Source: an uncultured Pelagibacteraceae bacterium (GTDB lineage Bacteria > Pseudomonadota > Alphaproteobacteria > Pelagibacterales > Pelagibacteraceae). From it: 47,125 nt of DNA. Below are positions 1 to 47,125 of the stretch, in pieces (within the stretch, counting starts at the first letter, position 1; every line of letters begins with the position of its first letter). The notes below the pieces were generated by a model. That model did no database searches and was not told the DNA's origin. It saw only the letters and a program-made list of their open reading frames with translations. The stretch is from the NCBI GenBank assembly GCA_902623415.1, contig CACNTU010000005.1:1-47125 (forward strand), given 5' to 3'. Both the position numbers and the translations under genes were made by a program.

Positions 1-56
1 TAAAATCTGAATTAAAAATTATGAATGAGGAAAAACTTTTAAGTTTACTTGTTTAA
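1..56 (+). CDS. 3' end of an unidentified upstream gene
   Basis: An open frame enters at the left edge (codons in phase with base 3) and ends at a TAA at 54-56, giving about 17 C-terminal residues ending in LLSLLV. It stops two bases before the ATG of the lipid A acyltransferase, so the two are probably co-transcribed. In many alphaproteobacteria acyl-carrier, ketoacyl-synthase or dehydrogenase genes of very-long-chain lipid A synthesis precede this acyltransferase, but too little protein is visible to name it. Confidence 0.5.
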   Translation, partial: KSELKIMNEEKLLSLLV

Positions 57-58
57 AT

Positions 59-919
59 ATGAAACATTTTAAATATTTTTTTCAGTTTATATTGGTAATA
101 ATAAGTTTTTTAATTTTTAAAATATTGGGTCCTAATATTTCATCAAAATTAGGAGGTAAATTATTTGAAAAAATTGGCCCTCTTTTTAGATCAAAAAAAA
201 TTATTTATTCAAATATTAAAAAAGTTTTTCCTGAGATAAATTCAGATGATTTAACAAAAATTACTAGCTCAATGTGGAATAATTACGGAAGATTTTTTGC
301 TGAATATGTATTTATTAAAAATTATAGAAATGGAAACCTTGCATCAAAAATAAATATTGAGGGACAAGAAATACTTGAAGACATAAAAAAAAACAACAAA
401 CAAGTGATCTTTGTATCCGGTCATTTTAGTAATTTTGAATTAATGGCAATGCAAATTGAAAAGGTGGGAATTAAATTAGCAACAATTTATCGCCCACTAA
501 ATAACATTTACCTTAATCCTATTATGGAAAGGGTAAGAAAAAAATATATATGTAAAAATCAAATTAAAAAAGGAATTGGTGGGATAAAAAAATTAATCAA
601 ATTAAAGAGAAATAATTATTCTACAGCTTTAATGATAGATCAAAGAGTTTCTGAGGGAATTTTATCAAATTTTTTTAACCAAAAAGCTTTAACAACAACG
701 ATTCCTGGTCAATTAGTTAAAAAATTTAATATACCAGTAGTTCCAGTTTTCATTGAGAGGATAAAAGGAACTGAGTTTAGAATGACAGTTAAAAATCCTA
801 TTATTTTTTCAAAAGATAAATCTGTTGAAAATATTACTGATGAATTAAATAATGTACTTGAACAATTTATTATTACGAATCCTAAAGAATGGATTTGGTC
901 ACACAATAGATGGAAATAA
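59..919 (+). CDS. Lipid A biosynthesis acyltransferase (LpxL/HtrB family)
   Basis: It probably transfers a secondary acyl chain from acyl-ACP to the lipid A precursor at the inner membrane. At 286 residues it is close to the family length (about 290-310). A hydrophobic N-terminal anchor spans about residues 8-28. The family's catalytic H-x4-D/E motif is visible as H122-FSNF-E127, inside GHFSNFELMA. Later family-like blocks include MIDQRVSEG and IPVVPVFIER. The ATG follows the preceding stop by two bases. The protein ends in WSHNRWK, as is common at the C terminus of this family. Which chain and position it acylates cannot be told from sequence. Confidence 0.9.
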   Translation: MKHFKYFFQFILVIISFLIFKILGPNISSKLGGKLFEKIGPLFRSKKIIYSNIKKVFPEINSDDLTKITSSMWNNYGRFFAEYVFIKNYRNGNLASKINIEGQEILEDIKKNNKQVIFVSGHFSNFELMAMQIEKVGIKLATIYRPLNNIYLNPIMERVRKKYICKNQIKKGIGGIKKLIKLKRNNYSTALMIDQRVSEGILSNFFNQKALTTTIPGQLVKKFNIPVVPVFIERIKGTEFRMTVKNPIIFSKDKSVENITDELNNVLEQFIITNPKEWIWSHNRWK

Positions 920-924
920 TTTTA

Positions 925-1116
925 TTATTTTTCTATTTGTTCTCTTTTTTTAAATGCTTCATGGTAGGAATAATAGGCTTCCTGCAAATCAACATTCCAA
1001 TAAGTTAAATTTTCTATACTTATTTTTTTCTTTGAGATAGCACACTCTACATAATCTCCGGGCTCAATAATTTGAAAATTATTTGGTAAATATTTTATTT
1101 TTGCTAATTTTTTCAT
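925..1116 (-). CDS. DUF2093 family small protein
   Basis: A 63-residue protein that resembles the small alphaproteobacterial DUF2093 family: a PNNFQIIEPGDYVECA-type opening, a central cysteine, then ISIENLTYWNVDLQEAY. The family has no established function that I know of. It converges on the acyltransferase with five bases between the stops, and diverges from purD with only 24 bp between start codons, so both promoters must overlap or lie in neighbouring coding sequence. No signal peptide or membrane segment is seen. Confidence 0.75.
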   Translation of the reverse strand: MKKLAKIKYLPNNFQIIEPGDYVECAISKKKISIENLTYWNVDLQEAYYSYHEAFKKREQIEK

Positions 1117-1140
1117 GATTTATAGTTTATATACTTCTAT

Positions 1141-2403
1141 ATGAAAGTTGGAATAATAGGAAGTGGAGGAAGAGAACACGCATTATGCCATAGTTTAAGA
1201 AAATCAGATAAAATTGATGAAATTTTTTGCTTTCCTGGAAATGCAGGTACATCAGATATTGCAAAAAATATAGATATAAATTTAGAAAATTTTGACAAGT
1301 TTAAAGATTTTATAAAGGACCAAAAAATAGACTTAATAATTGTAGGGCCAGAAAAACCATTGGTTGAAGGAATAGTTGATTTTCTTAAAAAATCTAAAAT
1401 CAAAGTTTTTGGTCCAAACAAGATAGCATCTCAATTAGAGGGGTCTAAAATATTTACAAAACAAATTTGTAAAAAATTTAATATTCCAACTGCAAAATTT
1501 GGAATCTTTAAAAATAAAGAGGAGGCGAATGAATTTTTAGGAAAAACAAATTTTCCAATAGTTATCAAAGCTGACAATTTGGCTTCCGGTAAAGGTGTTT
1601 ATATTTGCAATGACTTTGAGCAATCAAAAATTGCTGTTGAGGAAATATTTAATGGAAAATTTGGAAAAGCTGAAAATTTGCTAATAGAAGAATTTTTAGA
1701 TGGTGAAGAAATGAGTTTTTTTACAATTCATGATGGTAAATCTTTCAAGATTTTTGGAACTGCACAGGATCACAAAAGGGCTTTAGAGGGAGACAAAGGT
1801 AAAAATACTGGTGGTATGGGGGCATATTCTCCCTCCAGATTAATTAATGACGATTTAGAAAATAAAATAATAAAAAAAATTATTGAGCCAACTCTCAAAG
1901 GTTTAAAAGAGCTAGGAACAAAATATACTGGATTTTTATACACTGGTTTGATGATAGTAAAAAATGAACCATATTTAATTGAGTATAATGTAAGGATGGG
2001 CGATCCTGAATGTCAAACAATTTTACCAAAATTAAAAACTGATCTTTGTGAAATATTTTTAGCATGTTGTAATGGAAGATTAACTGATATTAATTTGGAA
2101 TGGTCTAATAAAAAAAGTTTATGTATTGTCGTGTGTTCAAATGGATATCCTGAAAAATATAAAAAAAATATAGAAATAAAAAATTTAAATAAAATTAAAT
2201 TTGATCACCCTAATCTTCTGTTTCATGCAGGAACAAAATTTGAAAACAATAAAATACAAGCTGTTGGTGGCAGAGTATTAAATTTTGTATATATGTCGGA
2301 TGATTTTGGATATGCAAGGAAAAAAATTATTGAAAGCATATCAAAATTAAACTGGTCAGGTGGTTTTTTTCGAAAAGACATAGGCTATAAAGTAATTGAT
2401 TAA
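1141..2403 (+). CDS. purD: Phosphoribosylamine--glycine ligase
   Basis: PurD joins glycine to 5-phosphoribosylamine with ATP, the second step of de novo purine synthesis, in the cytosol. The 420 residues match the family. The N-terminal GSGGREHAL (residues 7-15) is the PurD signature; an ATP-grasp domain follows with IKADNLASGKGV and a downstream GGMGAYSP block, and the metal/ATP site YNVRMGDPE. Its stop codon overlaps the start of rsmD by one base (TAATG), implying co-translation. It is the only de novo purine synthesis gene seen; the purine genes 26 kb to the right are catabolic. Confidence 0.97.
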   Translation: MKVGIIGSGGREHALCHSLRKSDKIDEIFCFPGNAGTSDIAKNIDINLENFDKFKDFIKDQKIDLIIVGPEKPLVEGIVDFLKKSKIKVFGPNKIASQLEGSKIFTKQICKKFNIPTAKFGIFKNKEEANEFLGKTNFPIVIKADNLASGKGVYICNDFEQSKIAVEEIFNGKFGKAENLLIEEFLDGEEMSFFTIHDGKSFKIFGTAQDHKRALEGDKGKNTGGMGAYSPSRLINDDLENKIIKKIIEPTLKGLKELGTKYTGFLYTGLMIVKNEPYLIEYNVRMGDPECQTILPKLKTDLCEIFLACCNGRLTDINLEWSNKKSLCIVVCSNGYPEKYKKNIEIKNLNKIKFDHPNLLFHAGTKFENNKIQAVGGRVLNFVYMSDDFGYARKKIIESISKLNWSGGFFRKDIGYKVID

Positions 2404-2972
2404 TGCGAATTATTTCTGGATTGTTTAAAGGAAAAAAATTACATAATCCTAAAGATTTAAATACTAGGCCATTAAAAGATTTAACAAAAGAATCTATTTT
2501 TAATATAATTAATCATTCTAATAAGTTTAAAATTTTATTAAACACAGCCAATATTTTAGATGTTTTTTCGGGTGTAGGTTCTTTTGGAATAGAATGTTTA
2601 TCACGAGGAGCTAAAAAAGTAATATTTATAGAAAATTACAAAGAGGTATTACCTATCTTAAGAGCAAACTTAATTAGTTTAAATTCGTTTAATAATTATG
2701 AAATAATTGAAAAAAATGCATATGAAATTAAAACTTTAACTGAAATAAATGAAAAGTTTGATATTATTTTTTTAGACCCACCTTATAAAGATAAAAATGT
2801 TGAAATACTACTAAGCAACATATTTAAAGAAAACATTCTAAACCAAAATGGAATAATAATTCTACATAGACACAAAGATGCTAACGATTTTATTTCCTCT
2901 AATTTTAAAATTATCGAGGAAAAAAAATATGGTATTTCAAAAATAATATTTATAAGTAATTTATATAAGTAG
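2403..2972 (+). CDS. rsmD: 16S rRNA (guanine(966)-N(2))-methyltransferase
   Basis: A SAM-dependent methyltransferase of the RsmD family, which modifies G966 of 16S rRNA in the small subunit. The 189 residues are typical. Visible motifs are the N-terminal MRIISGLFKGKKL, the SAM-binding loop DVFSGVGSFGIE (residues 53-64) and the catalytic DPPY at 125-128. It overlaps the purD stop by one base. Its 3' end overlaps the converging pgi gene by 12 bp, with no room for a dedicated terminator. Confidence 0.93.
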   Translation: MRIISGLFKGKKLHNPKDLNTRPLKDLTKESIFNIINHSNKFKILLNTANILDVFSGVGSFGIECLSRGAKKVIFIENYKEVLPILRANLISLNSFNNYEIIEKNAYEIKTLTEINEKFDIIFLDPPYKDKNVEILLSNIFKENILNQNGIIILHRHKDANDFISSNFKIIEEKKYGISKIIFISNLYK

Positions 2973-4115
2973 TTTTTTAGTTTCTTTTTTTATTAATTCT
3001 ACAGCTGGCTGATCATAGGGGTTTAAGTTAAGGGATTTGGCAAGCAAAATTGTCTCTAGAATAAAAAAACTAAATAGTTCGCCAAGAGTTTTCTCATTCC
3101 TTTCTTTAATTTCAAAACTTCGAAAAGGAATATTTTTTTTAATAAATACGTTTTCGGTTGCTTGTTTTTGTAAATAGCTTATGTCGGATATTTTTTTATT
3201 TTTGAGTTTATTTTGTGTTTTTAAAATAAGATTATTATTTAACTTATAAGATTTTTTATCTTTAGTATAAAAAAAAGTAAAAAAATTATTTTCAAAGCCA
3301 TCCAAATATAATTGCATAACACTATGATTATCTCTAGGCATGTTAGAAACTATTGGGAGAATACCTTTTTTTTTCTTACCTAAACTTTCAGCTACTAATT
3401 GCTGATACCATTTAAATATACTTTCAGATTTTTCATCATAATTAATTATTACCGAATTAAATTTTTTTTTTTTTATAAAATAAATAATTGAATTAACACT
3501 TGAAATTAAATTATTAATAAAATTTTTGTTTTTAACCAAATAGTTAAACCTTTTAAAATTATTTGGTTTCAATCCCATTAATTCAGCTGGTAACATTCCT
3601 ACCTCAGATAAGACTGAAAACCTTCCTCCAATAAAATTATTATGGTGAATGACATCTGCTTTCAATTTATTAGCTAAAGTATTCAAATAATTATTTTTTT
3701 TTTCTGTTATGAAAATATTTTTATCTTTATTTTTTATTATTACATTAGAATTAACTATAGTTTCTATTGTATTACCTGATTTTGATACAATTAAATTCGT
3801 GAATTTTTTTTTATTATCAATTAAAAACTCAGAATTAAGATTATCAATAAAGTAAAATTTTTTTTTTATTTTATGTCTGAGAAAATCATAGATTGCTTTA
3901 GTTCCCAAGGAGGAGCCACCCATACCAATAATTCTATAATAATTATTATGTTTATATTTTTTTATATCCTTATTTTTAAAAGAATATTTATAAAATTTTC
4001 CTAATGATTGAATTACTTGATTATTCTCTTTAATAACACTATCTAACTTTTTTTTTGTAATTTGATATTTATATTTTTTTTTAAAATTAATTAAATTAAT
4101 ACCTTTTGTTAACAT
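2961..4115 (-). CDS. pgi: Glucose-6-phosphate isomerase, short form
   Basis: It interconverts glucose-6-phosphate and fructose-6-phosphate. At 384 residues it is much shorter than the roughly 550-residue enterobacterial enzyme, but key elements remain: GMGGSSLG (64-71), the phosphate-binding SKSGNTIET (111-119), the GGRFSVLSEVG block with the catalytic glutamate region (163-173), RDNHSVMQ with the catalytic histidine, and the C-terminal YDQPAVELIKK signature. The ATG shares one base with the stop of the bamF-like gene, so this is the last gene of a six-gene leftward run. The N terminus is highly lysine-rich. Activity on a related phosphosugar cannot be excluded. Confidence 0.9.
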   Translation of the reverse strand: MLTKGINLINFKKKYKYQITKKKLDSVIKENNQVIQSLGKFYKYSFKNKDIKKYKHNNYYRIIGMGGSSLGTKAIYDFLRHKIKKKFYFIDNLNSEFLIDNKKKFTNLIVSKSGNTIETIVNSNVIIKNKDKNIFITEKKNNYLNTLANKLKADVIHHNNFIGGRFSVLSEVGMLPAELMGLKPNNFKRFNYLVKNKNFINNLISSVNSIIYFIKKKKFNSVIINYDEKSESIFKWYQQLVAESLGKKKKGILPIVSNMPRDNHSVMQLYLDGFENNFFTFFYTKDKKSYKLNNNLILKTQNKLKNKKISDISYLQKQATENVFIKKNIPFRSFEIKERNEKTLGELFSFFILETILLAKSLNLNPYDQPAVELIKKETKKLLI

Positions 4116-4441
4116 TAATTCTTCTTGATTTTATCTAACAAAAATTCTTCCAAGTTTTTGCTTTTCTGAGTGTTGTTATTTATATCACTATCTTGATTCT
4201 CATTTTGTGTTACTAGCTTTTTAATTTCTTGATTTCTTTGATCTAGATTAGTATCAATTTCAGAATTAGGTAATGGTAATTCCTCAAAATCTGGAGGTAA
4301 TTTTAAAGGATTTTTTTTTTCAACTAAAAATTCATCCGTGTTATCTTTTTTTTGAGTTGAAAAGCCTTCTTTAATTGTCCCGCAGGAACTCAAAAGATTT
4401 AAAATAAATAAATAAATAAAAAGTTTTTTAAAATTTTTCAT
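4115..4441 (-). CDS. BamF-like lipoprotein (DUF3035-type)
   Basis: A 108-residue probable lipoprotein. The start at 4441 is chosen because it gives a clean signal peptide (KNFKKLF, a hydrophobic stretch, then the lipobox LLSSC with Cys20); a longer in-frame start at 4468 would put nine residues before it. The mature part is polar and has KNPLKLPPDFEELPLP, like the alphaproteobacterial DUF3035/BamF proteins that associate with the outer-membrane beta-barrel assembly machine. Its start overlaps lspA by 14 bp. LspA would process this lipoprotein, so the pairing makes functional sense, although the family call rests on a short motif. Confidence 0.65.
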   Translation of the reverse strand: MKNFKKLFIYLFILNLLSSCGTIKEGFSTQKKDNTDEFLVEKKNPLKLPPDFEELPLPNSEIDTNLDQRNQEIKKLVTQNENQDSDINNNTQKSKNLEEFLLDKIKKN

Positions 4442-4937
4442 ATTCACTTTTATTCCTACTATTATCAATAATTTCTAACAAAATCATAAAAAATACACCT
4501 AATGTTATAAAGACATCAGCAAAATTAAATATAAACCAATGAAAGTTACCTATATGAAAATCTATAAAATCTGGAACAGCTTTAAAAAAAATTCGATCAT
4601 ACAAATTTCCGATTGCACCACCCAATATCATTATTAATGAATATTTTTTTAATCCATGACTCTTGACTGTTATCCAACTAATAATAAAAATTACAATAAT
4701 TATTAATAATGTTAATAAATTGTACAAATTATTTTGATCAAATGATAATAGACCGAATGCTATCCCTTCATTCCAAATTAAAGTAATATTTAAAAATTTT
4801 GAAGAAAATATTTCAGATCCAAGAAACTCCTTATCTAAATAAATAACATAAAATTTTGAAATTCTATCGAGTAAAAAAATTAAAAGAATAAAAGAAGAAT
4901 AAACAAAAAAATTTTTACTAAAATTTTTTATTTTCAT
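4428..4937 (-). CDS. lspA: Lipoprotein signal peptidase (signal peptidase II)
   Basis: LspA cleaves the signal peptide of diacylated prolipoproteins in the inner membrane. The start at 4937 (169 residues) lies two bases after the ileS stop; a start at 4955 would overlap ileS. Four hydrophobic segments are visible. The two catalytic-aspartate motifs are present: GGAIGNLYDR and FNFADVFI. The ileS-lspA order is common in proteobacteria. The coding end overlaps the start of the downstream lipoprotein gene by 14 bp. Confidence 0.95.
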   Translation of the reverse strand: MKIKNFSKNFFVYSSFILLIFLLDRISKFYVIYLDKEFLGSEIFSSKFLNITLIWNEGIAFGLLSFDQNNLYNLLTLLIIIVIFIISWITVKSHGLKKYSLIMILGGAIGNLYDRIFFKAVPDFIDFHIGNFHWFIFNFADVFITLGVFFMILLEIIDNSRNKSEYEKF

Positions 4938-4939
4938 TC

Positions 4940-7666
4940 TTAATTCACAACACAATTTGCTCTATCACAAGCTGTTTCTTTAATCTTCCAGCAAATAGAA
5001 CACTTTGACCCTTTTGCTTTACTAGTGATTGCTTTTGTTTCTATGTCATCTTTATAACTTACTTCAGCCTTTGAAGTAATACAAAGTTCAGAAAAATCTG
5101 TATTTTCTGTAAGACCTTTTAATTTTTGATTTAATTGTATTTTTAAATCCGCCTCCAAGCTTGATCCAATTTCTTTACTAGCTCTCTTTTCCTCAATACT
5201 TATATTGCAAATATTTCTAATTTTTATTAACTCACTCCATTTATTACTTAGTTTTTCATTTTTAAATTTTTCTGGAAATTCAAGAAATTTTTCAAGGTGT
5301 ATACTTTTTTTATCTTTAAATAATAATTTAAAAATTTCTTCCGTCGTAAAAGACAAAATAGGTGCAAACCATTTTAATAGAGCATTTAATGTAATATTAA
5401 GAAGTGTAATTGTTGATTGTCTTTTTTCTGAATCTATAGGATCGCAATAAAGATTGTCTTTTCTTATATCAAAGTAAAAAGCAGACAAATCAACAGTACA
5501 AAAATTTAATAGTTCTTTATATAAATTGTGAAAATCATAATTTTTAAAATACTTTTTAAAATTATTGTTTAAAATGTAGATTTTATGCAGGATTAACTGT
5601 TCTAACTCGGGTAACGCATTTAAATCAAGCGTATTAAAGTTTATTATTTCAAAATTATCATTTATATTTCCAAGTAAATATCTGAAAGTGTTTCTAATTT
5701 TTCTATAAGATTCTGCGTGCTGATCCAATATTGAATAATCTATTCTTAAATCTTCTGCATAATTAGATGATGCTACCCATATCCTTAAAATATCAGCTCC
5801 ATATTTTTTTAGAATATCTTCAGGAGCAATTACATTTCCTAAGGATTTAGACATTTTTAAACCTTTGCCGTCTACAACAAATCCATGAGATAAAATCGAT
5901 TCAAATGGTGCTCTTCCTCTAGTTCCACAAGACTCTAATAATGATGAATGAAACCAACCTCTGTGTTGGTCTGACCCCTCTAAATACATTGATGCTGGCC
6001 ATTTTAAATCATCTCTTTTTTCTAAAACAAATGAATGAGTTGAACCACTATCGAACCAAACCTCAACAATATCACTTAATTTTTCGAAATCCTCAGCTTT
6101 ATATTTATTTCCTAAAAATCTTTGAGGATCGTCTGAAAACCAACAATCTGAACCTTCTTTTTCATAAATAGAAGCAATATTTTCAATAACCTCATCGTCA
6201 ACTAAAATATCTTTTGTTTTTTTATTTACAAAAATTGGAAGAGGTACTCCCCAAACTCTTTGTCTTGATACACACCAATCAGGTCTTGTTTCTATCATTG
6301 ATTTTAACCTTTCTTTACCTTTGCTTGGATAGAAAGTTGTTTCATCAATAGCCTTTAATGCTTTATTTCTTAGTTTATGACTTTCCATTGAAATAAACCA
6401 TTGAGGTGTAGCCCTATGAACAAGTGGAGCTTTGGATCTCCATGAATGAGGATAAGAGTGAACCAGATCACCATTAAATAATAAATTTTTTTGCTCTTTC
6501 AGTTTTTCAATTACAATAGGATTTGCTTTAAAAATATGAGTTCCCTCAAACAATTTCACATTGTTTGTATATTTCCCATCCCCATCAACTGTTTCTATCG
6601 CTTTAATACCGTTATTCAAACAAAGATTAAAGTCATCAGGTCCATGACTTGGTGCGCAGTGAACTATTCCAGTTCCTTGCTCAGTAGTTACAAATCTAGC
6701 CTCAAGCATTGGGATATCATGATCATAACCAAGATTTAAAAATGGGTGACTACAAATAGTGTTATTAAATTCTTTTCCCTTAAAGGAATGAATTTTTTTA
6801 TAATTATTTAGTCCACACTCTTTAACAACTGATTCCAGTAGAGCGTCTGCAATAACAATTTTTCTGTTTTTAAAATCACCTTCATCATTTATTTCCAATA
6901 TTATATAATCAAGAGACTCGTTATATGCTAAAGCTTTATTGGCTGGTATTGTCCATGGTGTCGTTGTCCAAATAACTATTTCACTTTCAGCTAAATCTTT
7001 TAATTCAGATGATTTAACTTTGAATGACGTATAAATTGTATCTGATTTATGATCCTGGTATTCTACCTCAGCATCTGCAAGTGCAGTTTTCTCAACTGTT
7101 GACCATAAAACTGGTTTGAAACCTTTATACAGACTTCCCTCTTTTAAAAATTTACCAAGCTCTCTAACTATTTGTGCTTCTGCTCCAAAGCTCATTGTAG
7201 AATAATAATTTTCCCAATCCCCCACAACACCCAATCTTTTAAATTGGGTTTTGTGAACTTCAATCCATTTCTCAGCAAATGTTCTACATTCTTTTCTAAA
7301 CTCAACTATTGGAACTTCGTTTTTATTTTTTTTATTTTTTTTATATTGTTCCTCAATTTTCCATTCAATTGGTAAACCATGACAATCCCAGCCAGGAACA
7401 TAAATTGAGTCTTTTCCATCCATTTGATGAAATTTTACAATTATGTCTTTAAGAATTTTATTTAGAGCTGTTCCCATATGAATATTTCCGTTTGCATAAG
7501 GGGGACCATCATGTAAAACGAATTTTTCTCTTCCTTTACTCTCGTTTCTTAATTCATCGTAAAGATTTATTTTTTTCCAATATTCAAGAATTTCTGGTTC
7601 TCTGGTAGGCAGGTTGGCTTTCATTGAAAAAGCTGTTTTTGGCAAATTTATTTGTGGTTTAGTCAT
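4940..7666 (-). CDS. ileS: Isoleucyl-tRNA synthetase
   Basis: Charges tRNA-Ile with isoleucine. The 908 residues fit bacterial type-1 IleS. The class I HIGH motif appears as GNIHMG (residues 60-65, within HDGPPYANGNIHMG) and KMSKS as KMSKSLGN near residue 604. WTTTPWTIPAN is the editing-domain (CP1) signature, and WFDSGSTHS and EGSDQHRGWF are conserved core blocks. The C terminus keeps a zinc-finger-like pair of cysteine pairs (C889/C892 and C900/C905). Its start overlaps the ribF stop by 4 bp. Confidence 0.98.
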   Translation of the reverse strand: MTKPQINLPKTAFSMKANLPTREPEILEYWKKINLYDELRNESKGREKFVLHDGPPYANGNIHMGTALNKILKDIIVKFHQMDGKDSIYVPGWDCHGLPIEWKIEEQYKKNKKNKNEVPIVEFRKECRTFAEKWIEVHKTQFKRLGVVGDWENYYSTMSFGAEAQIVRELGKFLKEGSLYKGFKPVLWSTVEKTALADAEVEYQDHKSDTIYTSFKVKSSELKDLAESEIVIWTTTPWTIPANKALAYNESLDYIILEINDEGDFKNRKIVIADALLESVVKECGLNNYKKIHSFKGKEFNNTICSHPFLNLGYDHDIPMLEARFVTTEQGTGIVHCAPSHGPDDFNLCLNNGIKAIETVDGDGKYTNNVKLFEGTHIFKANPIVIEKLKEQKNLLFNGDLVHSYPHSWRSKAPLVHRATPQWFISMESHKLRNKALKAIDETTFYPSKGKERLKSMIETRPDWCVSRQRVWGVPLPIFVNKKTKDILVDDEVIENIASIYEKEGSDCWFSDDPQRFLGNKYKAEDFEKLSDIVEVWFDSGSTHSFVLEKRDDLKWPASMYLEGSDQHRGWFHSSLLESCGTRGRAPFESILSHGFVVDGKGLKMSKSLGNVIAPEDILKKYGADILRIWVASSNYAEDLRIDYSILDQHAESYRKIRNTFRYLLGNINDNFEIINFNTLDLNALPELEQLILHKIYILNNNFKKYFKNYDFHNLYKELLNFCTVDLSAFYFDIRKDNLYCDPIDSEKRQSTITLLNITLNALLKWFAPILSFTTEEIFKLLFKDKKSIHLEKFLEFPEKFKNEKLSNKWSELIKIRNICNISIEEKRASKEIGSSLEADLKIQLNQKLKGLTENTDFSELCITSKAEVSYKDDIETKAITSKAKGSKCSICWKIKETACDRANCVVN

Positions 7667-8586
7667 TTAATATTTCTTGCAATTTTTAAATCTTTTTTAA
7701 TTTGTGCTCTTAATTGATTAACATTATTAAATTTTTTTTCTTTCCTTATAAACTTAAAAAACTCTACTGATAAAAGTTTATTATAAAGATTTCCAGAAAA
7801 ATTAAATAAATGAACTTCTAGTAATATTTTTTTTTGATTAAATGTTGGTCTGTATCCAAGATTAGCAATTCCTTTAAGATATTTCTTACTATTTTTTCTC
7901 AAAACTTTTACTGCATAAACCCCTGGTTTTGCTAAAACATAATCACCGATGTCTATGTTACAGGTTGGAAAACCAATTTTTTTTCCTACTTGTCTTCCTT
8001 TTTTAACTACTCCTTGTATCGTCCAATATCTTTTTAAAAGATTATTTGCTTTGTCCAGTAGACCTTTTTCTAAAAGATTTCTTATTAAAGATGATGATAC
8101 GATCTTTTTGCTTTTAATTAATGGCTCAGGTTTAACAACTTTATAATTAAATAATTTTTCGTATTTTTTTAGTAAATTAACATTACCTTCTCTTTTATTT
8201 CCAAATTTAAAATTATTGCTAACAAAAATAAATTTGGAGCTTAATTTTTTATTTAAAATTTGAGAAATAAAGTTTAATGCTTTGGTTTTTGAAAATTTTT
8301 TATCAAATTTTTTTGTTATAACAAAATCTACTTTTAAACTACTTAGTAACTTAATTTTTTGATCGATATTAGAAAGTCGAAAATTTTTTAATTTTTTGTT
8401 AAAAAACATTTTTGGCATTGGATCAAAATTTACAACACCAATCTTTAGATTATATTTTTTCTTATACGACTGTGCTAACTGAAATAATTTTTGATGTCCT
8501 GAATGTAAACCATCAAAATTACCTATTAAAATAATTGATCCTCTGTGTAATTTTTTAATATTAAAATTTGTATAGTGTTTTACCAT
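7663..8586 (-). CDS. ribF: Bifunctional riboflavin kinase / FAD synthetase
   Basis: Converts riboflavin to FMN and then FAD. At 307 residues it has two domains: an N-terminal nucleotidyltransferase (IGNFDGLHSGH, residues 21-31, a variant of the GxFDGxHxGH motif, and SSSLIRNLLEKG) and a C-terminal riboflavin kinase domain (GRQVGKKIGFPTCNID, the family's PTAN-type motif as PTCN, then KPGVYAVKV and LEVHLFNF). The start overlaps the end of the HAD gene by 7 bp and the stop overlaps ileS by 4 bp. ribF-ileS-lspA is a classic bacterial gene order. Confidence 0.96.
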   Translation of the reverse strand: MVKHYTNFNIKKLHRGSIILIGNFDGLHSGHQKLFQLAQSYKKKYNLKIGVVNFDPMPKMFFNKKLKNFRLSNIDQKIKLLSSLKVDFVITKKFDKKFSKTKALNFISQILNKKLSSKFIFVSNNFKFGNKREGNVNLLKKYEKLFNYKVVKPEPLIKSKKIVSSSLIRNLLEKGLLDKANNLLKRYWTIQGVVKKGRQVGKKIGFPTCNIDIGDYVLAKPGVYAVKVLRKNSKKYLKGIANLGYRPTFNQKKILLEVHLFNFSGNLYNKLLSVEFFKFIRKEKKFNNVNQLRAQIKKDLKIARNIK

Positions 8587-9398
8587 TTTAAATCTGATTG
8601 AATAAAATTAACTATAGCCTCATACTCTTTTGAAACGTCTTGGATACCATTATTTTTTATTTCATTTCTATGTATTCCATTACTGATTAATAAAGAATCA
8701 TAATTTAAAAGATTTGCACCTCTAATATCAGTATTTAAATTATCACCAATTGCTAATATTTTTTTATTTTTATTATCAATTGACTGATTATAAACCTCTG
8801 GATGTGGTTTTCCAAAATATACTACTTCTCCACCCATTTTTTCAAAAACCATTGCGACAGAACCTGCACACAACTCTCTAACTTCACCACGATCAACGAT
8901 TAAATCTGGATTAGTACAAATCATTTTTTTGGTAATATGTTTTTCAAGTAAATCTTTATAAAATTCTAAATCCTTATCATGATCATCAAATAATCCAGTA
9001 CACAATAAATATTCACTATCACCAATATCTTCACACTTATTTTTCTCAAATAAATAAAATAAATCAAAATCTCTAGGTGGACCTATGTGGTAAAACTTTT
9101 TCGATAAGTAAAATTTTTTCAAATAATTCAATGCTGCCTCTCCTGATGTAAATACATGTTCTCTAAGAGTTTTATCCATACCCATCTTTTCTAAAAAATT
9201 TTGAACAGTTTTATTTGGTCTTGGGGCATTGGTTAAAAGTACGAACATTTTCTTTTTTTTTAAAAGTTTATTTAAAACATCTATTGCTTTTTCATGAAGA
9301 TTAACCCCATTATGAACAACGCCCCATAAGTCTATATAAAAAAGATCATAATTATCAGCAATTGATCGTAAGCCATTTAAATCTAAATTTTTGGTCAT
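8580..9398 (-). CDS. HAD superfamily class IIA phosphatase
   Basis: A 272-residue HAD hydrolase with the class IIA (NagD-like) layout. Motif I is YIDLWGVVHNG (Asp23 as likely nucleophile, with W in place of the second Asp's neighbour), motif II is VLLTNAPRP, and motifs III/IV are YFGKPHPEVY and AIGDNLNTDIRGA. Phosphatases of this class act on small phosphorylated metabolites. It is the first gene of the leftward run into ribF; a role on a flavin or other cofactor phosphate is inference from position only. It diverges from groES across 132 bp. Confidence 0.85.
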   Translation of the reverse strand: MTKNLDLNGLRSIADNYDLFYIDLWGVVHNGVNLHEKAIDVLNKLLKKKKMFVLLTNAPRPNKTVQNFLEKMGMDKTLREHVFTSGEAALNYLKKFYLSKKFYHIGPPRDFDLFYLFEKNKCEDIGDSEYLLCTGLFDDHDKDLEFYKDLLEKHITKKMICTNPDLIVDRGEVRELCAGSVAMVFEKMGGEVVYFGKPHPEVYNQSIDNKNKKILAIGDNLNTDIRGANLLNYDSLLISNGIHRNEIKNNGIQDVSKEYEAIVNFIQSDLKW

Positions 9399-9465
9399 AT
9401 TTTAAGGTATAAACCATAAAATCGCGAATTTACTAGGAATTTTAATATCCTAAAGATTTTCTGAT

Positions 9466-9493
9466 CTTGAAATAGATGGTGAAATATCTATAT
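9466..9493 (+). promoter_or_regulatory. Sigma32 (RpoH)-like heat-shock promoter of groESL
   Basis: CTTGAA at 9466-9471 and CTATAT at 9488-9493 are separated by 16 bp, about 37 bp before the groES ATG. CTTGAA is the core -35 element of RpoH promoters, and a C-starting, T/A-rich -10 element is described for alphaproteobacterial RpoH. The same layout, CTTGAA-N16-CYATAT, sits in front of the hsp20 gene at 26346. No CIRCE operator is seen, so control by sigma factor rather than by HrcA is inferred. Confidence 0.65.
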
Positions 9494-9530
9494 GAAGCTC
9501 ATATTTATAAAGATTTATTAAGGAGAATTT

Positions 9531-9821
9531 ATGAAGTTTAAACCGTTACATGATAGAGTTTTAATCGAGGTATTAGATGGCAGTGAAAAAACTGCTGGAG
9601 GAATAATTATCCCTGACACAGCTCAAGAAAAACCTCAAGAGGGTAAAGTTGTTGCTGTAGGTGGTGGTGCAAAAACTGAAGATGGAAAAATAATTCCAAT
9701 GGATGTTAAAGTTGGTGATAAAGTTTTATTTGGCAAATGGTCAGGAACTGAAGTCAAAATTAATGGCAAAGAATACAGCATAATGAAAGAGTCTGACATT
9801 ATGGGTATTTCAGGTAAGTAA
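9531..9821 (+). CDS. groES: Co-chaperonin GroES
   Basis: The 96-residue heptameric lid of the GroEL chaperonin. It has the GroES opening [13 protein letters not shown], the mobile-loop region [14 protein letters not shown] and the [11 protein letters not shown] block. A good ribosome site, AAGGAG, lies upstream of the ATG. It is followed 22 bp later by groEL, which has its own AAGGAG site, forming a two-gene operon that ends at the terminator at 11531. Confidence 0.98.
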
Positions 9822-9831
9822 TTTAATTTAA

Positions 9832-11505
<1,674 letters not shown>

Positions 11506-11530
11506 TCCCTCATTTTCTTTAATTAATTCT

Positions 11531-11561
11531 AAAAAGGCCATCTCAAGATGGCCTTTTTTTT
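11531..11561 (+). terminator. Rho-independent terminator after groEL
   Basis: GGCCATC and GATGGCC form a perfect stem around a TCAA loop (11536-11553), preceded by AAAAA and followed by eight T residues. It lies 26 bp past the groEL stop and should end the groESL transcript. The flanking A and T tracts make it potentially bidirectional, but nothing converges here. Confidence 0.93.
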
Positions 11562-41641: not shown

Positions 41642-41965
41642 TTATTTTTCCGCAGCTATAGATGTATAGTGAGCAACTGCTTCTATTTCCTCATCAGTTA
41701 GTATACCCTCCATTGCGGGCATTACCCCTATACCGTTTCTAACTGCCATTATAATTCTTTGAATATCAGGTCTAATTTCATTTAAATTTGGGCCAACCAT
41801 TGCGTTCGATCCAGCATCTGAGAGCATATGACATGCTGCACAATTTCCAGTTCCCAGAAAAACCTCTTTTCCCTTATTAAATAATTCATCAGCATTAACG
41901 TGGGTTAATGATAAAAATATCAAAAATAATGATGTACCAAAGAAATTTAAAAATAATCTTTTCAC
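41642..41965 (-). CDS. Small cytochrome c (probable PuuD haem partner)
   Basis: A 107-residue c-type cytochrome with a signal peptide (1 to about 25) and the haem motif C42-AA-C45-H46; the likely axial methionine is in GVMPAMEG (Met82). The ending TDEEIEAVAHYTS is class I cytochrome c-like. Its size and motifs match the cytochrome domain that is fused to PuuD elsewhere, and it stands at the end of the purine cluster, so a role as electron acceptor for the stand-alone PuuD is a reasonable inference. It is divergent from DUF1330 across 43 bp. Confidence 0.85.
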   Translation of the reverse strand: MKRLFLNFFGTSLFLIFLSLTHVNADELFNKGKEVFLGTGNCAACHMLSDAGSNAMVGPNLNEIRPDIQRIIMAVRNGIGVMPAMEGILTDEEIEAVAHYTSIAAEK

Positions 41966-42008
41966 ATAAATTTGGTATCATAATTAAAAAAATTTAAAAA
42001 GGAGAATT

Positions 42009-42296
42009 ATGAAAGCTTATTGGATTGCAAATTATACTGAAATAAAAGATGACGAAAGACTTAAAAAATATGCCGTCAAAGCTAAAGAAGCGGTTGAAAA
42101 ATATTCTGGAAAAATAATAGCGAGAAGTGCAAATAATGTAACTTTGGAAGGTAGGGAAATGATTAGAGTAGCTCTTGCAGAATTTCCAGATATTGAAACA
42201 GCAAAAAATTGTTACAATTCTGAAGAGTATGTTGAAGCTAGAAAACATTTGGAAAATAATGCTACTAGAGAACACATAATTTTTGAGGGAATGTAA
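42009..42296 (+). CDS. DUF1330 family protein
   Basis: A 95-residue ferredoxin-like-fold protein of the DUF1330 family: KAYWIANYTEIKDDERLKKYA at the start, ALAEFPDIETAKNCYNSEEY and REHIIFEGM at the end. No function is established that I know of. A ribosome site AAAAAGGAG precedes it. Its position between the cytochrome and XdhC-family genes suggests a link to urate or molybdoenzyme function, but this is inference. Confidence 0.85.
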   Translation: MKAYWIANYTEIKDDERLKKYAVKAKEAVEKYSGKIIARSANNVTLEGREMIRVALAEFPDIETAKNCYNSEEYVEARKHLENNATREHIIFEGM

Positions 42297-42317
42297 AATT
42301 AAATAACAATATAATAA

Positions 42318-42647
42318 ATGACACAATCATTTAATGATAGGATTTTAGAAGAGGCAATTTCATGGATTGAGTCCGGTGAGCAAGTAACTCTTGCAACCGT
42401 AGTTGAAACTTGGGGATCGTCTCCATTCCAAATTGGAAGTAAAATGATAATTAATGAAAAAGGTAATTTTTTAGGATCAGTTTCTGGTGGTTGTGTCGAA
42501 ACAAGTGTAATTACTGAATGTTTGGAATTAATAAAAAATAATAATTTATTTAAAAAAATTGATTTCAAAATCTCCGATGAAAATGCTTGGGACAAAGGCC
42601 TTGCATGTGGAGGAGAAATGACTGTTTTTATAGAACAAATAAATTAA
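42318..42647 (+). CDS. XdhC/CoxI-domain protein (short form)
   Basis: A 109-residue protein with only the N-terminal XdhC/CoxI domain: TLATVVETWGSSPFQIGSKM, the SVSGGCVET motif and the C-terminal DKGLACGGEMTVFIE. Proteins of this family help insert the sulfurated molybdenum cofactor into xanthine dehydrogenase-type enzymes. It is intact and its stop overlaps the start of the second XdhC gene by one base. Confidence 0.9.
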   Translation: MTQSFNDRILEEAISWIESGEQVTLATVVETWGSSPFQIGSKMIINEKGNFLGSVSGGCVETSVITECLELIKNNNLFKKIDFKISDENAWDKGLACGGEMTVFIEQIN

Positions 42648-42937
42648 TGAAAATAGAAACACTCAAAGAAATAATAAAAAAAAAATCATCTTATGAAGAA
42701 TTTGCTGTTTTAACTAATTTAAGTAACGGGTCCTCTGAAATGTTTAAATTAGGAGTCCCTTTAAGTAAAAATTTTATTAATCATAAAAATGAAATAGAAA
42801 ATTATTATAATTTAAAAAAAAATGGTATCATTAATAAAACTGATATTTATATTCAAAATTATATAAAACCAATTGATGTAATCATAGTTGGTGCAGTGCA
42901 TATTACACAATATTTTCAAAAACTCTCTCTTGAGTAG
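42647..42937 (+). pseudogene. XdhC-family gene, 5' portion (broken)
   Basis: This frame encodes 96 residues that match the start of the longer (about 230-residue) XdhC-family protein: a TLKEII-type N terminus and then the beginning of the Rossmann domain PIDVIIVGAVHITQYF. The normal protein would continue with the rest of the dinucleotide fold; here it ends a few residues later at a TAG. The missing C-terminal part is present on the opposite strand at 46826-47125. The last few codons coincide with the antisense fusion-protein fragment, so the breakpoint lies about 42904-42917. Confidence 0.8.
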
Positions 42938-43079
42938 TAGTTACTATTATTCCAGGGGGCGGTCTTTTACTGAATTTTTTTTTGAAATGATTTCCGATCA
43001 TTGTTCTTCCAATAATCACTGTTGCAATTATTAGAAAAAATATAATTACTATACTTGTTATTTTGGTAGATGTTTTCAT
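42903..43079 (-). pseudogene. N-terminal fragment of an HlyD/RND membrane-fusion protein gene
   Basis: A 58-residue open frame whose ATG overlaps the sseA stop (ATGA). It has a basic start, one membrane anchor (about 8-24), then a KRPPPGIIVTTTQERVFENIV segment, which looks like the opening of RND efflux adaptor subunits. The family usually continues for another 300 or so residues; here a TAA follows at the point where xdhC breaks from the other side. The identity rests on the anchor plus proline-rich segment, so it is moderate. It would be the third gene of the msrA-sseA transcript. Confidence 0.55.
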
Positions 43080-43894
43080 AAGTTAATTTTTCCATATTCG
43101 GCCCAAGAGCCATCGTAAATGGTCGGCATATATTTAGCATTTATTAAAGAATAAGCTAGTGCCAAAACACTTGCGGTTACTCCAGAACCACATGAAAATA
43201 CAATGTTTTTGTCATGGTCAAATTTAAATGACTTAAACTTTTCAAGTATTTTGTCTTTACTAATGAAAGTGTGGTCCTCATTAATTAATTCAGAAAAGGG
43301 TAGGCAAAAAGAATTTTTTATTGAACCACTTCTAAGACCTTTCCTTGGTTCAGCAACTTTACCTTCAAATCTTTCTCTACTTCTTGCATCAACAACATTA
43401 AATTTTCCTGAATCAATATTTTCATCTATTTGTTTTTTATTTTTAACAAGTTCTTTATTTTCTTTACTTGTATACTTAGAAGTTTGAGTGGTCACTTTAT
43501 TGTTATCTGTAAATCTATTTTCTTCTTTCCATTTTTTTAATCCACCATCTAAAACATGAACTAGTTTAGGGTCATGTCCATAATAAATTAAATTGTACCA
43601 ACATCTACAAGAGCTAATAACATCAGAGTTATCGTAAACTACTATTCGATCATTATTTTTTATACCCATGTTATTCATTATTTTTTCCCAAGATTTACTA
43701 TCAGTAAGCATATGTGGTAAATCAGTATCTAATTTAGAATTTTTATCTAAATCAAAAAAAATAGCATTTGGAATATGTTCCTCTGCATATTCCTCAAAAC
43801 CGTTTCTTTGAGTTTGAGGCATATGCCACGAGCAATCAATAATTTTTACTTTATCAATATTATTTTCTAACCAACTTGTATCAACTAAAGACAT
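43076..43894 (-). CDS. sseA: 3-mercaptopyruvate sulfurtransferase
   Basis: A 272-residue protein with two rhodanese domains. The active-site loop CGSGVTAS (Cys235) is of the mercaptopyruvate type rather than the thiosulfate type (CRKGVT). The inactive N-terminal domain has SWHMPQTQR and HIPNAIFFD; the linker repeats the pattern FNVVDARSRERFEG. It follows msrA with one base between and is followed by the broken adaptor gene. Confidence 0.93.
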   Translation of the reverse strand: MSLVDTSWLENNIDKVKIIDCSWHMPQTQRNGFEEYAEEHIPNAIFFDLDKNSKLDTDLPHMLTDSKSWEKIMNNMGIKNNDRIVVYDNSDVISSCRCWYNLIYYGHDPKLVHVLDGGLKKWKEENRFTDNNKVTTQTSKYTSKENKELVKNKKQIDENIDSGKFNVVDARSRERFEGKVAEPRKGLRSGSIKNSFCLPFSELINEDHTFISKDKILEKFKSFKFDHDKNIVFSCGSGVTASVLALAYSLINAKYMPTIYDGSWAEYGKINL

Positions 43895-43895
43895 T

Positions 43896-44339
43896 TTATC
43901 TTTTTTCTAAATATCGTTGATGATACTCTTCAGCTGGGCAATAATTTTTAACTAAAGAAGTTTTTGTTACTATTTTTCCTGATAATTTGACGTTTTCTTT
44001 TTCTATCATTTTTTCAGCAGTAATTTTTTGATCATCATTTAAATAAAATATTTCACTTCTATATTGAGTTCCGAAATCTGGTCCTTGAGAATTTAAGGTT
44101 GTTGGATCGTGAATTTCAAAAAAATATTCAAGAATTTTCTCGTAAGATATTACTTTAGGATCAAAATCTAATTTTACTACTTCTGCATGATTTGTTTTGC
44201 CTGTACATACTTCTTTGTAATTTGTTTTAGCATTATGACCTCCACAATAACCTACTTCTGTTTTTATAACTCCATCAAGTTTACTAAACTTAATTTCTGG
44301 TCCCCAAAAACACCCTAATCCTAAAATTGCTATTTCCAT
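43896..44339 (-). CDS. msrA: Peptide methionine sulfoxide reductase A
   Basis: Reduces methionine-S-sulfoxide in proteins. The 147-residue chain contains the catalytic GCFWG motif (Cys10) and the FFEIHDPTTLNSQGPDFGTQYRS block, and a C-terminal EEYHQRYLEKR. It is a compact MsrA lacking the longer C-terminal tail. It starts the leftward msrA-sseA-adaptor run and is divergent from the EamA gene across 34 bp. Confidence 0.96.
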   Translation of the reverse strand: MEIAILGLGCFWGPEIKFSKLDGVIKTEVGYCGGHNAKTNYKEVCTGKTNHAEVVKLDFDPKVISYEKILEYFFEIHDPTTLNSQGPDFGTQYRSEIFYLNDDQKITAEKMIEKENVKLSGKIVTKTSLVKNYCPAEEYHQRYLEKR

Positions 44340-44373
44340 TGATAATTAACTTAATTAATCTAAAGTTAATCAT

Positions 44374-45255
44374 ATGTTATCAAAAAATCAATTAGGCTTT
44401 TTTTACATGTTCATATCGGTATGTGCATTTTCACTTATGGATGTGATTGTTAAATGGTCCGAGGATTATCCCGTTGGACAGGTATTATTTTTCAGAGGAT
44501 TTTGTGGAATAATTCCTATTTTATTTCTTATTCCTAAAGATAGATATTTAGATTTTTACAAAACAACCAGACCACTTCTTCATTTTAAAAGATGTTTAGC
44601 AGGATTAATTGCTTTGGTTTCTATATTTATAGCATTAAGAAATTTGCCTTTAGCAACAGTTGTAAGTATTTCTTTTGCAGCACCAATATTTATAACAATA
44701 TTTTCAATTTTTTTACTAAAAGAAAGAGTCGGTATTTATCGATGGTTAGCAGTTTTAGTAGGATTTGTTGGTATAATTTTCATCACTGAACCAGGTTTTA
44801 GCTCTTTAAATTTATATTATATTTATCCAATAATTTTTTGCTTAGGCCTATCTTACGTTGCTATTGCTATAAGAAAATTATCATCAACAGAACCTGCTTG
44901 GTTAATTAGTTTTTTCTTTTCATTCTCGATAATGCTTCTAAGTTTTTTATCTTTTTATCAGGGATGGGTTTTGCCAAGTTTACGTGATTTATTTATGTTA
45001 TCAATGGTTGGTATATTAGGCGGTCTTGCAAATCTATGGTTATCACAATCTTATAAATACTCAGAAGTAAGTTTAGTTTCCCCTTTAAAATATCTTGGAT
45101 TAGTCTTTGCTATAATATTTGGATATTTTATTTGGAACGAAATACCAACTTCTAAAACATTATTAGGTGCCTTATTAGTTATAGTTTCATCTATTATTAT
45201 ATTTAGAAGAGAAATGTATTTGAAAAAAAAGTTATCTGTTTCACGACATGAGTAA
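44374..45255 (+). CDS. EamA-family (DMT superfamily) transporter
   Basis: A 293-residue inner-membrane protein with about ten hydrophobic helices in two EamA repeats. The N terminus shows SLMDVIVKWSEDYPVGQVLFFRG and repeat ends such as LKERVGIYRWLAVLVGFVGI, both typical of the family. Substrates of this group are metabolites or amino acids; none can be named here. It overlaps the glycosylase gene by 8 bp. Confidence 0.9.
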   Translation: MLSKNQLGFFYMFISVCAFSLMDVIVKWSEDYPVGQVLFFRGFCGIIPILFLIPKDRYLDFYKTTRPLLHFKRCLAGLIALVSIFIALRNLPLATVVSISFAAPIFITIFSIFLLKERVGIYRWLAVLVGFVGIIFITEPGFSSLNLYYIYPIIFCLGLSYVAIAIRKLSSTEPAWLISFFFSFSIMLLSFLSFYQGWVLPSLRDLFMLSMVGILGGLANLWLSQSYKYSEVSLVSPLKYLGLVFAIIFGYFIWNEIPTSKTLLGALLVIVSSIIIFRREMYLKKKLSVSRHE

Positions 45256-45883
45256 AACTCCATCATATTGGAATAAAGCAAAAAAATATTTATCTAAAAA
45301 AGATAAAACCATGTCCTCTTTAATTAAAAAATATAAATCCCCTTCAGAGACAGTGTTAACTTCAAGAAAAGATGTCTTTTTCTCTCTCTGTAAAAGTATA
45401 ATTGGACAACAAATTAGTGTAGCAGCTGCTAATTCAGTTTTTTTAAAATTTAAGAAAAAATGCAAAAATAAAATTAACGCAAAAACAGTAAGTAAGTTAT
45501 CTACTATTCAGCTCAAAAGTTGTGGTCTTAGTAGACAGAAAGTAAAAGGAATAAAAAGTTTAGCCAAACAGATATTGAATAAAGAATTTGATCCAAGACT
45601 TATTTCAAAAATGTCTGATGAAGATGCCATAATTTATCTGTCTCAATTAAGACAAATTGGAAGATGGTCAGCAGAAATGATTTTATTATTTACTTATAAT
45701 CGCCCTAATATTTGGCCAATCCAAGATATTGGTTTGTTAAGAGCTATTTCAAAAAATTTTAATAAAAAATATCTTCCACCAGAAAGATATGTTAAATATT
45801 TAAACAAAAAGTTTTCACCTTATTGTTCAGTTGCAACTTGGTATTTGTGGAGAAGTATAGATCCCGAACCTATTCAGTATTAA
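45248..45883 (+). CDS. DNA-3-methyladenine glycosylase II (AlkA-like)
   Basis: A 211-residue base-excision glycosylase of the HhH-GPD family. The helix-hairpin-helix is LRQIGRWSAEMIL (124-136) and the catalytic aspartate is Asp150 in WPIQDIGL. GQQISVAAA near residue 54 is another AlkA-like mark. The large N-terminal domain of E. coli AlkA is missing, as in the shorter Mag-type enzymes. No iron-sulfur cluster cysteines are seen. Confidence 0.9.
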   Translation: MSKTPSYWNKAKKYLSKKDKTMSSLIKKYKSPSETVLTSRKDVFFSLCKSIIGQQISVAAANSVFLKFKKKCKNKINAKTVSKLSTIQLKSCGLSRQKVKGIKSLAKQILNKEFDPRLISKMSDEDAIIYLSQLRQIGRWSAEMILLFTYNRPNIWPIQDIGLLRAISKNFNKKYLPPERYVKYLNKKFSPYCSVATWYLWRSIDPEPIQY

Positions 45884-45892
45884 ATCATTATA

Positions 45893-46780
45893 TCAATCTA
45901 TCCATTCTTGATATTTGTCTATATTATCAATTAAAAATTTAGGTAAATTTTGTATCGGATAATTTTCTAATTTGTTCCCACCTAATTTATTTTGTCTTTG
46001 ATCTGCTGATAAATTATAGACTGCAATTTTATCTTTTATTATTTTATTAATTTGATTAGTAGTTAACGGATTTTTGTCAAATTCAATATGATGAAGATAT
46101 GATTTTAATTTATGTTTAATCTCTTCAGCTGTTTTTATATTGGTAAAATGCCATCCACCTTTTTTAATTATCTTACAATTAATAAATTTTTTTTCAGAAA
46201 AAAAAGCATCTATCCTATAGAATGGATATTTACGATCTTTTATATTTCTTAACCACTGAGGGTTTTTTAAATATTTCTTTCTACAGCCCTTAGTTCCTTT
46301 CCATGATAAGTTGGGTAATTTTAAATTAAATTTGTAATAAAACATATCTTGTTCAAATAAAAAAATTTTTTGACTTATTTGATTAAAATCTAAATCATTT
46401 AAATTTGGTATTTCGTCTACATCTGAAATTAAAATGATATCATCGCTTTCAGCACTTTTTAAACCTTTTTCAATGAAATTTCTTTGACCATTCTCTCTGA
46501 AAATAGCATTCATAATTAATTTTCTTGATTTCTCTTTCTCAGTATCTTTTATATTGATATCCTCTATATTTTCTGGAACCTGATCATAAATGAGATAAAT
46601 GATTTTATCTTTAAATTGTTCAAATTTATTTTGATTAAATTTTAATTCTCTCTTTTCTCCACGATGAGTGAATGTACTTTCCACGATTACAAAATAATCA
46701 ACATATTTTTTTAAAATATTTAGCCTAAGATCTAAAATCATTTCCTCGTCAAAATACATAAAACAATCAAATATCTTCAT
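45893..46780 (-). CDS. Glycosyltransferase family 17 protein
   Basis: A 295-residue GT17-like enzyme: the N-terminal KIFDCFMYFDEEMILDLRL, VESTFTHRGEKREL and the DDIILISDVDEIP aspartate-rich metal-site block are typical. In eukaryotes GT17 adds beta-1,4-GlcNAc; bacterial members are found with cell-surface polysaccharide genes and their acceptor is unknown. It is read leftward, 45 bp after the xdhC 3' part, and converges on the glycosylase gene with a 9-bp gap. Confidence 0.88.
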   Translation of the reverse strand: MKIFDCFMYFDEEMILDLRLNILKKYVDYFVIVESTFTHRGEKRELKFNQNKFEQFKDKIIYLIYDQVPENIEDINIKDTEKEKSRKLIMNAIFRENGQRNFIEKGLKSAESDDIILISDVDEIPNLNDLDFNQISQKIFLFEQDMFYYKFNLKLPNLSWKGTKGCRKKYLKNPQWLRNIKDRKYPFYRIDAFFSEKKFINCKIIKKGGWHFTNIKTAEEIKHKLKSYLHHIEFDKNPLTTNQINKIIKDKIAVYNLSADQRQNKLGGNKLENYPIQNLPKFLIDNIDKYQEWID

Positions 46781-46825
46781 AATCTTTTTTTATATATTAA
46801 AAATTTACTATAGATAAAGATACAA

Positions 46826-47125
46826 TCATAATTTGTTTCTTTCCGAAACTAATTGGGCAACAATTGACAAAGCTATTTCTGGAGCAGATTTTCCTCCCAG
46901 TTTAATACCAATTGGTCCATGGATTGAGTTGATTTGATCATCATCAAATCCATCTTCTTTTAATCTTCTACATCTATTCTGATGAGTTTTTCTACTCCCT
47001 AGAGCACCTATATAAAAAAACTTCTTTTTCAAAGCGTATTTTAATGCTGGTTCGTCAATTTTTGGATCATGAGTCAAAGTTATTAAAAAAGTATTAGAAC
47101 TTAATTGAATTTTTTTAAAAACTTC
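46826..47125 (-). pseudogene. XdhC-family gene, 3' portion (continues off the right edge)
   Basis: The frame is open at the right edge. It encodes the C-terminal part of an XdhC-family protein: EVFKKIQLSSNTFLITLTHD, then a PKIDEPALKYALKKKFFYIG segment, ALGSRKTHQNRCRRLKE, and GPIGIKLGGKSAPEIALSIV. A TTG at 47077 could be read as a start but the coding frame clearly extends upstream of it. The + strand fragment at 42647 stops at the front of this domain, and the two have no residues in common, so together they make one protein, minus an estimated 35-45 residues that would lie just past the edge. If it proves to be a complete, separate gene, this call should change to CDS. Confidence 0.7.

Follow-up and report, generated by a model that had tools for sequence, protein, structure and literature searches.

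An xdhC gene split between strands at the end of a Pelagibacteraceae contig: a probable amplification chimera in place of an inversion

The split xdhC gene and the reversed segment beside it

The stretch of DNA analysed here (the window) is the whole of contig 5 (G000:C5:1-47125; 47,125 bp) in an uncultured Pelagibacteraceae assembly of 893,819 bp, which comprises 47 contigs and is 71% complete. Because the window is an entire contig, its right edge is also an end of the assembly, and nothing can be read beyond position 47125. Near this edge lie the genes for XdhC, a family that inserts the sulfurated molybdenum cofactor into xanthine dehydrogenase. An intact forward-strand ORF of 109 aa (42318–42647) carries the N-terminal domain XdhC_CoxI (PF02625, 3.5e-21 in Pfam), and just downstream the frame of the Rossmann-domain gene opens on the same strand at 42647 and runs to a stop at 42937. 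Codon alignment with intact relatives shows that homology to L083, L084, L107 and L108 is lost after 42915, that is, after 89 codons and 2 bases. The last 99 codons of the same gene are found on the reverse strand at 46826–47125, in a frame that begins at codon 128 and is truncated by the contig edge. The two pieces have no overlap, and the codon numbering leaves a gap of 112 bp between them. This agrees with the sequence-only reading, which had described an xdhC divided between opposite strands into halves that share no sequence and together nearly complete one protein.

The right-hand piece is recognized as XdhC_C (PF13478; E 2.2e-27; profile positions 45–125 of 125), the start of the profile falling within the missing part of the gene, and the left fragment alone matches no Pfam family at E 0.001. 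Both domains of the XdhC family, XdhC_CoxI and XdhC_C, are present in the window. Since XdhC_CoxI occupies an intact ORF of its own, XdhC is here a two-ORF pair of which only the second ORF is split. The domains are located on two adjacent ORFs, a difference from the XdhC family that is also found in the related locus L014; in other respects the protein is ordinary.

The xdhC gene of relatives matches the window through 42915, and the reverse complement of their efflux adaptor gene matches from 42912, leaving a 4-nt overlap, ATTT (42912–42915), that is common to both sides of the join. The chance of an overlap of at least 4 nt at a random inverted join on this contig is 0.034. To the right of 42912 the first 56 codons (168 bp) of the adaptor gene follow in reverse complement (42912–43079, reverse strand); the gene encodes an efflux membrane-fusion protein of the HlyD type. 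The piece is 95% identical to L014:11868-12860 in a match covering query residues 1–59, the last three of which lie past the join; in L014 the product is a HlyD-type membrane-fusion adaptor and the next gene encodes an AcrB-type pump. The reversed limb continues through genes for a rhodanese-type sulfurtransferase (sseA-like; 43076–43894, reverse strand), msrA (43896–44339, reverse), an EamA-family transporter (44374–45255, forward), an HhH-GPD DNA repair glycosylase (45248–45883, forward) and a family 17 glycosyltransferase (45893–46780, reverse), the last of which is optional at this site in relatives. The limb then re-enters xdhC, in which the contig ends 112 bp before the break.

Outside the pieces in the window, a search of the assembly found neither the remainder of the adaptor gene nor the genes for the pump and, further on, the histidine phosphatase. 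It likewise found no native join, no sequence for the 112 bp lacking from xdhC and no further xdhC. This genome as assembled thus does not show the intact arrangement.

The locus in related genomes

The native gene order in two relatives (G006 and G024) is cytochrome c (−), the xdhC N-terminal ORF (+), the xdhC Rossmann ORF (+), DUF1330 (+), HhH-GPD (−), EamA (−), msrA (+) and sseA (+), followed by the adaptor gene and then the pump gene. Comparison of gene order with relatives, as the sequence-only reading had proposed, shows that xdhC is intact there and that the block after it runs the opposite way. Positions 42912–47125 of the window correspond to the G006/G024 block in reverse, with the glycosyltransferase added between xdhC and HhH-GPD. 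Synteny places the two joined parts natively about 4.3 kb apart, the second being inverted relative to its native order. A different DUF1330 gene lies upstream of xdhC in the window, sharing 42% identity with that of G006 and 32% with that of G024.

A survey of named loci with one sseA protein query (the best 80 of 333 loci, many of them short and containing only part of the block) found 78 of the 80 to be colinear by gene strand, the exceptions being L053 and L060. A nucleotide scan of both strands flagged the same 2 of 80, together with L125 and the window itself. The join sequence, with 3 mismatches allowed, occurs in one of 399 sampled genomes of the genus, the present one, although xdhC itself is present in just 113 of them. 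These 113 are the genomes in which the Rossmann ORF is matched at E 1e-10; the present genome is the only one of them with two matches, and four others have partial matches (G285, G196, G235 and G237). The two pieces in the window are closest to the same relatives, L083, L084, L107 and L108 (80–82% and 82–86%).

The interval between cytochrome c and HhH-GPD (41642–46826 in the window; L044–L123) is a small flexible site, in which xdhC, the family 17 glycosyltransferase and DUF1330 genes are present or absent depending on the relative while the flanking gene order is kept. Among 70 loci with both cytochrome and HhH-GPD (from the best 80 of 333, with L060 left out beforehand), xdhC and the glycosyltransferase are both absent from 44 and both present in 1; of the others, 16 have xdhC and 9 the glycosyltransferase.

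Presence of xdhC was also compared with that of the window's xdhA. In the 57 genomes that are at least 90% complete, xdhC was found in 10 of 10 with this xdhA compared with 2 of 47 without it. Over all 399 genomes the corresponding counts are 79 of 99 and 34 of 300, and the 20 of 99 genomes that have xdhA but no xdhC match are all less than 90% complete. These counts suggest that XdhC goes with this XdhA enzyme, which lowers the likelihood that a genome with an intact xdhA has lost its only xdhC. In a separate observation, xdhC in 7 of 10 relatives (L013, L016, L017, L018, L019, L020 and L021) adjoins another molybdenum-hydroxylase gene set, away from the purine cluster, with a hydroxylase about 24–25% identical to the window's xdhA. 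In G022:C11:44778-47067, xdhA was matched as two slightly overlapping pieces on the same strand, which suggests a frameshift. The purine cluster is already known, and the present finding adds nothing to knowledge of it: the available part of PMC11698098 describes purine degradation genes of SAR11 and other ocean microbes, several of them named as here (uraH, uraD, alc, allA and puuE were assigned by eye), and the term xdhC is absent from its main text.

Similar joins in other contigs and the probable single-cell origin of the genome

Three other contigs (L053, L060 and L125) resemble the window in consisting of normal sequence, a join with a short overlap, a reversed limb and an end short of the break, and differ from it in their breakpoints. 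L053 (AG-900-F19 NODE_31; 1–5505, an entire contig of 5,505 bp) enters the adaptor gene in the forward direction and then turns back, its return limb starting from the far end of that gene; both breakpoints lie within or adjacent to the adaptor gene, the overlap is 4 nt, and the contig ends about 200 bp before its break (199 with L101 as the reference frame). L060 (AG-447-P18 NODE_24; 1–10199, the whole 10,199-bp contig) has its breakpoints in EamA and xdhA, joining the former to the reversed latter with an overlap of 6–7 nt, and ends about 1.3 kb short of the break in the frame of L104. L125 (G346:C21, 11,543 bp; 9940–11543) contains xdhA residues 428–763 on one strand and 194–385 on the other, both breakpoints being in xdhA; its overlap, in a T run, is 3–6 nt, or 3 nt if no mismatch is allowed, and it ends 100 bp before reaching the break when measured against L089. 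In all four contigs, including the window, the reversed limb is terminal and does not reach the far flank. The terminal reversed limbs of L053, L060 and L125 are likely amplification chimeras.

We infer that the present genome is itself a single-cell genome. All of the 80 named relatives (best 80 of 333) carry single-cell names (AG- or SCGC AAA-), with the title prefix “MAG:” on 21 of the 80, and AG- plate names are used for single-cell genomes (PMC6122165). PMC5519541, which is cited for the methods behind single-cell genomes with AG- names, describes, in its available part, assembly with SPAdes in single-cell mode, trimming of 100 bp off each contig end and retention of only those contigs longer than 2,000 bp; the available part of PMC6946804 contains no statement on contig trimming. 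Contig size in the present genome, determined for 20 of the 47 contigs, decreases as the contig number rises, reaching 2,005 bp at contig 47, which is consistent with the cut-off of more than 2,000 bp in the single-cell pipeline.

Origin of the join

A real, fixed chromosomal inversion of about 4.3 kb, disrupting xdhC and the downstream efflux adaptor gene, would account for the reversed gene order and the complementary gene halves, and the 4-nt shared sequence could stem from microhomology-mediated repair, as short overlaps occur at natural inversion joins too. However, a single event would then have disrupted two genes, including the only xdhC that could be found in this assembly, and yet have left xdhA intact. 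Its join is absent from the other 398 sampled genomes, and it would be by coincidence that the contig ends 112 bp from the second break, a coincidence repeated in three other contigs. Inverted repeats also speak against it. A search of 42000–47125 yielded 362 pairs of inverted repeats, the 25 longest of which are imperfect (70–87%) and AT-rich. Since the right break lies outside the contig, the test was repeated on the native sequence of relatives, within 250 bp of both breaks, for the 7 of 9 intact relatives that were testable (L101 and L108 do not have the string used to locate the start of the adaptor gene and were left out). None of the 7 has an exact inverted match longer than 11 nt between the native breaks (the longest were 9–11 nt), and in 6 of 7 the best inverted alignment scores below the random 95th percentile; L015 is just above it, with a score of 15 compared to 14 and a random maximum of 16. 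The repeats at the two ends that go with a chromosomal inversion between inverted repeats were thus not found in the native sequence of these seven relatives. A fixed inversion appears very unlikely.

The lack of an inverted repeat above background in 6 of 7 relatives argues equally against an invertible segment present in both orientations, with the assembly graph forking at the break. Such a segment would likewise explain why the contig ends near the break, but both states would be required within one single cell, and the 78 colinear loci among the best 80 of 333 are accompanied by only 2 exceptions, which have other breakpoints; we give this scenario next to no weight. The possibility raised by the sequence-only reading that a second, full-length xdhC enters from the right, with a remnant at the left, is compatible with the contig taken alone, given its open right edge. 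Against it stand the complementary, non-overlapping pieces, their sharing the same four closest relatives and the single match in each of the other 112 matching genomes, and its probability is minimal. It is likewise highly improbable that a real, perhaps reversible, inversion via the 4-nt microhomology switches off xdhC and the neighbouring efflux adaptor gene.

We conclude that the join is almost certainly an inverted chimera formed in vitro during multiple displacement amplification (MDA, with phi29) of single-cell DNA and kept by the assembler. The k-mers on which SPAdes joins sequences are much longer than 4 nt, and an assembler error alone would thus not produce a 4-nt overlap; a chimeric molecule is required. 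What stands of the inversion with one end in xdhC that had been proposed from the sequence is the geometry of a reversed segment (about 4.3 kb by synteny), and not a genomic inversion that damages xdhC; the “assembly join” offered there as an alternative is nearer, although an in vitro inverted chimera is the more precise description. According to the available part of PMC1855051, 406 of 475 MDA chimeras were inverted, the partners were less than 10 kb apart in 337 of these 406, and complementarity of at least 2 bp was present in 76.8% of MDA chimeras. The join in the window is similarly inverted, its partners lie within 10 kb of each other and a few nucleotides are complementary, whereas the chimeras described in that part of PMC1855051 are reads of an amplified E. 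coli cell and the window is an assembled contig of the SAR11 clade (Pelagibacteraceae). Counting against a chimera, the available part of PMC6162917, on other single-cell genomes, judged chimeric reads to be without substantial impact on assemblies.

In a plausible course of events, a displaced 3′ end in the region would use ATTT to re-anneal to another displaced strand nearby, at a distance of about 4.3 kb, and its extension would produce normal sequence, the join and the reversed limb. The contig would then stop at its return to xdhC, probably at a fork in the assembly graph where the true path, which continues through an intact xdhC, parts from the false join, and 100 bp may subsequently have been trimmed from the contig end. 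A uniform spacing of 100 bp between break and contig end was considered and rejected, the distances being 112 bp (window), 100 bp (L125), about 200 bp (L053) and about 1.3 kb (L060). With exact agreement in one of four contigs, the trimming argument is only a supporting one.

The cell's own xdhC is probably intact. If the join is a chimera, the apparent inversion is not a real feature and nothing new is learned about XdhC. The result calls for caution in that gene halves on opposite strands at the ends of single-cell contigs should be read first as amplification chimeras; such contigs were encountered four times in the vicinity of this single locus. In SAR11 pangenome work, amplification chimeras can be mistaken for pseudogenes and inversions.
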